DNA of 64,000 nt, taken from NCBI RefSeq assembly GCF_045679555.1, contig NC_092094.1, positions 35,108,430-35,172,429 on the forward strand, given 5' to 3'. Both the position numbers and the translations under genes were made by a program. Positions within the stretch are counted from its first letter, which is position 1, and each line of letters starts with the position of its first letter. The notes below the pieces were generated by a model. The model searched no databases and was not told where the DNA came from. It saw only the letters and a program-made list of their open reading frames with translations. The DNA is from Salvelinus alpinus. Taxonomy: Eukaryota; Chordata; Actinopteri; Salmoniformes; Salmonidae. Positions 5,001 to 8,000 of the stretch are shown in pieces.

Positions 5001-8000
5001 ACTGAAGAAGTGCACTAACCATGGTTTCCTCATCAGGCAGCCCGAGGAGGAGTGTAACACTCAACAGGAGCACCTGCAGGTAGGACCAGCAATAAGAGCT
5101 CAGCTCAACGCATTAAAAGGTGTGTTATGTGAATTAGTCTCTACCTTGCAAATGATAAGACTGTGAACTAATTATCTCCCCTGTTTTTGCTGTTTTGAAT
5201 GTTGAGAAATACATTGATTAAAATGGAATAGCACGATTCCATGCAACCCACACTAATGTATTGGTTTGTTTAGCGGTGGAGAACAGATTTGACCTCTTAC
5301 CTTGTGTGAATCTCAGGCGTTGGTGAGGGGCAGTGGGAAGCTGGTGCTACTGGACAAGCTGCTGACCAGACTTCGGGAGAGGGGCAACCGAGTCCTCATC
5401 TTCTCCCAGATGGTGCGGATGTTGGACATCCTGGCTGAGTACCTGGCCCTGAAGCGTTACCCATTCCAGGTAGGGTTTAACACAGCCCAGGGTATGGCAA
5501 GGCAGCAGTGCTACCCATTCCAGGTAGGGTATAACACAGCCCAGGGGATGGCAAGGCAGCAGTGCTACCCATTCCAGGTAGGGTATAACACAGCCCAGGG
5601 GATGGCAAGGCAGCAGCGGTACCCATTTCAGGTAGGGTATAACACAGCCCAGGGGATGGCAAGGCAGCAGCGCTACCCATTCCAGGTAGGGTATAATACA
5701 GCCCAGGGTATGGCAAGGCAGCAGCGCTACCCATTCCAGGTAGGGTATAACACAGCCCAGGGTATGGCAAGGCAGCAGCGCTACCCATTCCAGGTAGGGT
5801 ATAACACAGCCCAGGGTATGGCAAGGCAGCAGCGCTACCCATTCCAGGTAGGGTATAACACAGCCCAGGGGATGGTAAGGCAGCAGCGCTACCCATTCCA
5901 GGTAGGGTATAACACAGCCCAGGGTATGGCAAGGCAGCAGCGCTACCCATTCCAGGTAGGGTATAACACAGCCCAGGGTATGGCAAGACAGCAGCGCTAC
6001 CCATTCCAGGTAGGGTATAACACAGCCCAGGGGATGGTAAGGCAGCAGCGCTACCCATTCCAGGTAGGGTATAACACAGCCCAGGTGATGGCAAGGCAGC
6101 AGTGCTACCCATTCCAGGTAGGGTATAACACAGCCCAGGGGATGGCAAGGCAGCAGTGCTACCCATTCCAGGTAGGGTATAACACAGCCCAGGGTATGGC
6201 AAGGCAGCAGCGCTACCCATTCCAGGTAGGGTATAACACAGCCCAGGGTATGGCAAGGCAGCAGCGCTACCCATTCCAGGTAGGGTATAACACAGCCCAG
6301 GGGATGGTAAGGCAGCAGCGCTACCCATTCCAGGTAGGGTATAACACAGCCCAGGGTATGGCAAGGCAGCAGCGCTACCCATTCCAGGTAGGGTATAACA
6401 CAGCCCAGGGTATGGCAAGACAGCAGCGCTACCCATTCCAGGTAGGGTATAACACAGCCCAGGGGATGGTAAGGCAGCAGCGCTACCCATTCCAGGTAGG
6501 GTATAACACAGCCCAGGTGATGGCAAGGCAGCAGTGCTACCCATTCCAGGTAGGGTATAACACAGCCCAGGGGATGGCAAGGCAGCAGTGCTACCCATTC
6601 CAGGTAGGGTATAACACAGCCCAGGGGATGGCAAGGCAGCAGTGCTACCCATTCCAGGTAGGGTATAACACAGCCCAGGGGATGGTAAGGCAGCAGTGCT
6701 ACCCATTCCAGGTAGGGTATAACACAGCCCAGGGGATGGCAAGGCAGCAGCGCTACCCATTCCAGGTAGGGTATAACACAGCCCAGGGGATGGTAAGGCA
6801 GCAGTGCTACCCATTCCAGGTAGGGTATAACACAGCCCAGGGGATGGTAAGGCAGCAGTGCTACCCATTCCAGGTAGGGTATAACACAGCCCAGGGTATG
6901 GCAAGGCAGCAGCGCTACCCATTCCAGGTAGGGTATAACACAGCCCAGGGGATGGTAAGGCAGCAGTGCTACCCATTCCAGGTAGGGTATAACACAGCCC
7001 AGGGTATGGCAAGGCAGCAGTGCTACCCATTCCAGGTAGGGTATAACACAGCCCAGGGGATGGTAAGGCAGCAGTGCTACCCATTCCAGGTAGGGTATAA
7101 CACAGCCCAGGGGATGGTAAGGCAGCAGGTCCAAACCTTCAGTAGTCTACCTCCTGTTGTTCTTGTATTCAGTATGACTTCTCCTTGTTAGTTCTTTTAC
7201 ATCTCCATTATATGTTTTGTTTATTCCATGTGTAACTCTGTGTTGTATATCTCAAACTGCTATGTTTTATCTTGGCCAGGTCGCAGTTGCAAATGAGAAC
7301 TTGTTCTCAACTAGCCTACCTGGTTAAATAAAGGTGAAATAAAAAAAGTTAAAAAAAAAAAAGTGTTATTCCATATTTATTATATTGACTTAGTGAGGGC
7401 GTTTACATTAGAGGTGCCGTTGAGATATTGGAGCAGTGTTGGCGTCAACTCTGGTGTTAACCGGCTCATGTGTCAGTTTTGCAGCACACATGCACTGGCA
7501 GTGTTAGTGTATATGGTTATTTTTATCCTCAAGTTATTTTTGATGTGGACTGGCTGGTCCCCAAAGCCAGAGTGCACACTGTCTTCATGCTGGGCTTTAG
7601 CATGGTTAAATCACTGTAGACATAGTTTTACTGCTGTATTGCTCTTTGACAATATGCTGCTTGCCTGATGGATCGTATAATGGCATGTATAGCTGAGCGT
7701 TGCTCAGTGGCATCTTAGGGCGGAGGGCGTTTCGGCAAGGTTCCAAGGTTTGAGGTCTCTCCTTCCCTCTCTTCTCAGCGCCTGGATGGTTCCATAAAGG
7801 GAGAAATACGAAAACAGGCACTTGACCACTTTAATGCTGAAGGCTCTGAGGTATGTAATCGGAACTATGTGATGTTTTAGCTGTTGCAGATTGGAGGGGT
7901 TGATCATTTCAGTGTTTGTCAGCTCTGGATCTGCGTCAGGGCTTAGTTATGTTTCAGTTACTCTGAATGATTATGCGCAAGGAGATGTATATATCGTCAA

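Follow-up and report, generated by a model that had tools for sequence, protein, structure and literature searches.

A 54-bp minisatellite at an exon-intron boundary of chd2 in Salvelinus alpinus carries a splice donor in each of its 31 units

The stretch of Salvelinus alpinus DNA analyzed here (64,000 nucleotides; referred to as the window) contains 33 exons of a chd2 gene and, overlapping the end of the 14th of these, a minisatellite in which every unit carries the splice donor of that exon. The gene model was obtained by tblastn with a human CHD2 protein sequence, together with inspection of splice sites. The features needed to follow the array are listed below; here and throughout, a slash in a sequence marks a splice junction.

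837..16520, plus strand: chd2 gene; the window lacks its 5' exons and covers 33 others, with 1657 codons ahead of the stop
5317..5469, plus strand: chd2 exon, 14th of 33 in the window, 51 codons, ends with YPFQ in phase 0 and includes nt 1 to 12 of unit 1 (tblastn, gene model, ORF list)
5458..7131, plus strand: minisatellite of 31 units, each exactly 54 bp long (TRF, direct scan)
5458..5511, plus strand: unit 1, which includes the end of the exon and its original donor (GT at 5470)
5726..6194, plus strand: upstream member of a pair of exact 469-bp repeats, units 6 to 13
6158..6626, plus strand: second copy of the exact 469-bp repeat, units 14 to 21
5875..7118, plus strand: span of the ATG/GTAAGG donors, 10 copies, all phase 0, first GT at 5875 and last at 7117
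7132..7778, plus strand: rest of the array-bearing intron, 647 nt
7287..7347, plus strand: tail of a dispersed repeat within this intron, downstream of the array, with two AATAAA (7327 and 7338)
7779..7850, plus strand: next chd2 exon, starts with RLDGS in phase 0, strong acceptor (tblastn, gene model)

The chd2 exons range in size from 42 to 286 nt, and the shortest intron is 95 nt. At 2309 nt, the array-bearing intron is the longest of the 32 chd2 introns because of the array; without the 30 extra units it would measure 689 nt. At exon 3 (2041-2058) there is a second possible donor, TTG/GTATCT, 18 nt downstream of GGAG/GTGATG and in frame; a residue-by-residue comparison with three relatives showed that none of them has the six residues that the downstream site would add.

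To find homologues, we searched with a predicted chd2 protein carrying two repeat units and scored the alignments over the junction, which gave 1983 proteins at E up to 0.001 from 2694 candidates. Among the best 120 of these 1983, the nearest relative was P0027, an Oncorhynchus tshawytscha protein annotated at its source as chromodomain-helicase-DNA-binding protein 2 isoform X2, at 98.0% identity over 1654 aligned residues (a value obtained with a gene model in which exon 3 was still 18 nt longer), and further salmonid proteins came next. The preliminary description of this DNA had placed the array between two exons meeting in phase 0, inside helicase lobe 2. Both statements hold: the end of exon 5317-5469 and the start of exon 7779-7850 are in phase 0 in the gene model, and the junction falls after residue 836 of P0027, within its Pfam Helicase_C domain (793-906). 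The chd2 reading frame has no internal stop over the 33 exons and a single terminal stop, and against P0027 no rate excess was detected with any of five outgroups (P from 0.16 to 0.72), and decay of the gene was rejected on these grounds; against a more distant salmonid protein, P0026, the chd2 of the window had 43 changes to 25 (P = 0.03). The chd2 gene in the window thus looks intact rather than like a pseudogene.

TRF reported a 54-bp array at 5453-7128 with 31.0 copies, 96% matches, and 0% indels, and a direct scan placed 31 head-to-tail units from 5458 to 7131, all spacings being exactly 54. Each unit is composed of 12 nt of exon end, the donor GTAGGG, and 36 nt of intron start, the array beginning 12 nt inside exon 5317-5469; since a conventional transcript takes just these 12 nt of unit 1 as exon, the donors of the other 30 units are copies. 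The preliminary description had reported an 18-nt motif, TACCCATTCCAG/GTAGGG, in each of 31 units of exact 54-bp period. The period, the count, and the 9-nt donor CAG/GTAGGG (31 of 31 units) stand, and the full 18-nt string is exact in 30 of the 31: unit 4 (5620) carries TACCCATTTCAG instead of TACCCATTCCAG, a synonymous change. No occurrence of TACCCATTCCAG outside the array was found on either strand within the window. The existence of a 31-unit, donor-bearing array in this chd2 gene is therefore confirmed. The unit length is divisible by 3 and translates to 18 residues, and the frame across the array is open from 5293 to 7191, with the stop at 7189-7191 (ORF list). A special RNA fold of the units was considered and rejected (z = -0.59; equally good folds in 50 of 200 shuffles), and a match to Rfam mir-92 (E 0.48, far under the gathering score) was put down to chance.

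Scored with a vertebrate donor table, CAG/GTAGGG reaches 9.26 and ranks 8th among the 32 chd2 donors (ranks were computed with the end of exon 3 placed 18 nt later, which leaves that of the array donor unaffected). There are 3758 GT sites in the window, 45 of which score at least as high as the array donor, and 31 of those 45 are the array's own. The units hold other donor-like sites as well: ATG/GTAAGG in 10 units (score 9.1, phase 0), CAG/GTGATG in 2 units (7.25, phase 0), and AGG/GTATGG in 12 units (6.25, phase 1), the first of these last being already in unit 1. Splicing from the phase-1 AGG/GTATGG would shift the frame and lead to early stops. Altogether, the array has 43 phase-0 and 12 phase-1 donor-like sites. 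As the 9-nt donor is identical in all 31 units, U1 pairing alone cannot discriminate among the copies.

The order of the units records how the array grew. There are 13 distinct unit types, with distinct units at both array ends, and the types FFGFHGIB of units 6 to 13 recur directly as units 14 to 21, with 469 bp repeated without a single change 432 bp, or 8 units, further along; a run of eight repeated unit types was obtained in 0 of 5000 shuffles of unit order. An exact eight-unit, 432-bp block duplication means that the array expanded recently, and the block duplication is recent unless it was made by assembly. Neither the placing of the array nor its open frame is striking by itself. Of all 54-nt stretches in chd2, 10.8% span a donor, so that a random 54-bp seed would do so often enough for the array's placing to need no special cause. 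The open frame was likewise rejected as a sign of selection, because 762 of the 1370 donor-spanning 54-mers of chd2 would stay equally open if repeated. Protection of the donor motif from change was also considered and dropped: 10 of the 54 unit positions are variable (9, 20, 24, 35, 36, 41, 45, and 52-54) and one of these 10 lies within the 18-nt motif, but at P = 0.08 this is no firm sign of selective constraint on the donor.

The copied exon end also resembles an acceptor. The 15 nt in question read CGTTACCCATTCCAG in the exon and C or T followed by GCTACCCATTCCAG in most units, and every unit has an AGGT site, all in phase 0 (CCAGGTAGGG in 30 units and TCAGGTAGGG in unit 4). The exon end scores 8.75 as an acceptor, first among chd2's 32 exon ends (a post hoc rank), and its 30 copies in the array score 8.45 (16 copies), 8.72 (13), or 6.58 (1), compared with a median of 6.83 for chd2's 33 real acceptors. 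Since the copied exon end outscores the other 31 as an acceptor, each unit resembles a dual-specific AG/GT site such as those of UBC (discussed below), a likeness that is new here. AGs lie 15, 18, 22, 33, and 38 nt upstream of the acceptor-like site of the array, whereas in all 33 real chd2 acceptors any upstream AG is at least 19 nt away (38 nt checked); these intervening AGs argue against acceptor use in the array.

Any isoform made from a downstream donor would read 13 residues, then R or C, then YPFQ, this block being repeated n times before RLDGS. The preliminary description had calculated inserts of n times 18 residues, from 0 to 540 for donors 1 to 31, and the arithmetic is correct. Since every unit ends in YPFQ, each predicted insertion isoform retains YPFQ/RLDGS and the insert falls before it; unchanged residues beside RLDGS would be one point in favor of inserts being tolerated. 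In the best 120 of the 1983 homologues, no insert was found at the chd2 junction and no words of the repeat peptide were found; 119 of the 120 read YPFQ/RLDGS and one (P0001) reads YTFQ/RLDGS. P0001 had the top score (119 bits) and was examined as a possible insert-bearing protein; it consists of two chd2 helicase cores with YTFQ/RLDGS and no insert. When the repeat peptide was searched alone, nothing was found at E up to 10 among 7095 candidates. Neither search thus gave evidence for the use of later donors. The database is clustered at 90% identity (P0027 represents 48 sequences), length windows apply, and the source species is perhaps absent from it; short inserts and isoforms more than 90% identical can hide in such clusters. 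The predicted structures were too poor for use, with a mean pLDDT of 43.7 for a listed CHD2 and 63.4 for the exon plus part of the array (single sequence).

The minisatellite of human IFI6 has a 12-nt unit and an array of 26 units. It provides multiple splice donors (Turri et al. 1995, cited in PMC4526556), and excerpts of PMC4526556 describe three mRNA species arising through two downstream repeat units; the same report by Turri, Cuin, and Porter (1995) on IFI6 (6-16, G1P3) is also cited in the reference lists of PMC2572611 and PMC3618361. In both genes, an exon ends in a minisatellite whose units each include a splice donor, and in IFI6 downstream units can act as donors and yield in-frame isoforms. 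IFI6 differs in being a small interferon-induced protein, whereas the chd2 array has 31 units of 54 nt, lies at a junction within the ATPase core of a conserved remodeler, and offers its downstream units as putative donors. A second comparison is with the tandem dual-specific splice sites of human UBC and VCX3A (Duan et al. 2024; excerpts of PMC10809524). Like the chd2 array, UBC, as excerpted there, has tandem units divisible by 3 with an AGGT in each in the same phase, so that the frame is preserved whether a unit is retained or left out; its units, however, are 228-nt coding units for functional ubiquitin monomers, and their use as donor and acceptor was shown by an RT-PCR ladder (PMC10809524). 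In the chd2 array, by contrast, 42 of the 54 nt per unit are intronic and acceptor use is a matter of sequence resemblance. In rainbow trout irak3, 15 to 17 nt of exon 5 are repeated four times directly upstream of exon 5 (excerpts of PMC6763605); this is also a salmonid gene with a short exon edge repeated beside its exon, but on the acceptor side, in four short copies and, in the excerpts, with no donor array. Finally, internal tandem repeats in human segmental duplications are associated with gene structure changes and intron formation (excerpts of PMC2812944). There, as here, expansion of a minisatellite changes how a gene is divided into exons and introns, and splice sites can arise or be uncovered in the process; the cases excerpted differ in being lineage-specific human paralogues, with no donor copied 31 times. 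The phenomenon is thus already known from IFI6 and UBC, and chd2 is an unusual new host gene for it. The earlier statement that no donor-bearing minisatellite had been described in a chd2 gene went uncontradicted in a literature search of open-licence PMC papers.

We consider it fairly likely that the locus is an intronic minisatellite with a donor in each unit, in which splicing takes place mostly at the first donor or donors, perhaps with some leakage of products with 18 or 36 additional residues, and most of the array is probably just intron. A 54-bp stretch over the exon-intron boundary of chd2 would have been duplicated in tandem and then expanded via slippage or unequal exchange, with the exact eight-unit duplication as the last visible event. 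By exon definition, the acceptor at 5316 would pair mainly with donor 1 or another near the start of the array, and the remaining array would leave as intron; the chd2 coding sequence would be untouched because the spliceosome would mainly join the upstream acceptor to the first donors. Splicing at donor 2 or 3 may occur in a minority of transcripts, which would then carry 18 or 36 extra in-frame residues. Far donors should seldom be used, as the exon (153 + 54n nt) passes the chd2 maximum of 286 nt at n = 3. Two points count against the first donor as the preferred one: experiments with duplicated donors have sometimes favored the intron-proximal site, and ATG/GTAAGG (9.1) is about as good as CAG/GTAGGG (9.26). 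For the leak, the use of two downstream repeat units in IFI6 is a precedent, as excerpted in PMC4526556.

The array may instead be functional, as the preliminary description suggested, with several donors used to give a graded ladder of insertion isoforms and with array length setting the ratio of active to insertion-bearing CHD2. The 31 identical phase-0 donors, together with 12 more phase-0 donor-like sites, the frame open throughout, the preservation of YPFQ/RLDGS in every isoform, and a recent expansion that implies possible variation in length all fit such a ladder. We nevertheless regard it as unlikely: no insert appears in the best 120 of the 1983 homologues, the repeat peptide is absent among the 7095 candidates, an open frame is expected by chance (762 of 1370 donor-spanning 54-mers), the 12 phase-1 sites would break the frame, and the low variability of the 18-nt motif (1 of 10 variable positions, P = 0.08) does not make constraint firm. 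Were the units to act as both donor and acceptor, transcripts with inserts could be re-spliced and collapse to YPFQ/RLDGS, a 54-nt insert being too short for removal. An exon end that ranks first of 32 as an acceptor (8.75), copies at 8.45 to 8.72 in 29 cases and 6.58 in one against the median of 6.83, a 108-nt intron that would lie within the chd2 range (shortest, 95 nt), and the precedent of UBC (excerpts of PMC10809524) speak for dual use. It is quite unlikely all the same, given the AGs 15, 18, 22, 33, and 38 nt upstream of a site whose real counterparts have none nearer than 19 nt, a sole branch-site-like string noticed, TATAAC, that sits before those AGs, and a 1-in-32 rank that is post hoc. 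We give a slim chance to a self-correcting version, in which any of dozens of equivalent donors would be chosen, inserts of at least 2 units would be re-spliced, and the 0-unit and 54-nt (+18 residue) products would accumulate in a ratio set by array length. An n-unit insert would start with GTAGGG and end with CCAG, and a later reaction from donor 1 could excise it exactly; the odds of such re-splicing are lowered by the AGs upstream of the array acceptor.

Two further explanations were weighed. An assembler might have inflated the copy number or duplicated the eight-unit block, and the exact 469-bp repeat at a 432-bp lag is what such an error could leave; 13 unit types in structured order with distinct end units are unlike a simple copying error, and at most the block duplication is doubtful, so we hold an artefact to be highly improbable. 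Otherwise, the copies might matter as U1 binding sites and not for splicing; in large number, such sites would suppress premature polyadenylation at the intronic AATAAA signals or, on failing, allow a truncated protein that reads all units. AATAAA does occur downstream of the array at 7327 and 7338, the retained frame crosses the array to the stop at 7189-7191, and a protein translated across the array would terminate if polyadenylation took place in the intron at 7287-7347. These signals, however, are part of a dispersed repeat, and one normal donor usually suffices to suppress premature polyadenylation; such a role is scarcely to be expected.

With its 31 donors, identical over 9 nt and spaced evenly every 54 nt within a single native gene, the array amounts to a natural titration of 5' splice-site choice: donor sequence is constant and position alone varies, which makes it a clean natural test of the choice between identical sites. 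Human CHD2 is dosage-sensitive, and variation in array length between individuals, if present, would provide an allelic series in chd2. The array would also bear on how minisatellites are tolerated at exon edges and on how introns lengthen.

Several other features of the window were noted. Stretches similar to the repeat tail at 7287-7347 occur at 39616-39677 and 50911-50959. An rgma-like gene adjoins chd2 on the minus strand at 26087-29763 (Pfam RGM_N and RGM_C in two ORFs). Remnants of Tc1/Sleeping-Beauty-like transposases lie at 18712-19077 and 21770-22462 (Pfam HTH_SB and DDE_3), and retrotransposon-like fragments at 49397-52532 gave weak Pfam matches, below or at cut-offs, to RT_RNaseH, a zinc knuckle, and DUF4939. 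At 63024-63134, TRF found a 51-bp unit in 2.2 copies that are 98% alike, another recent tandem duplication.
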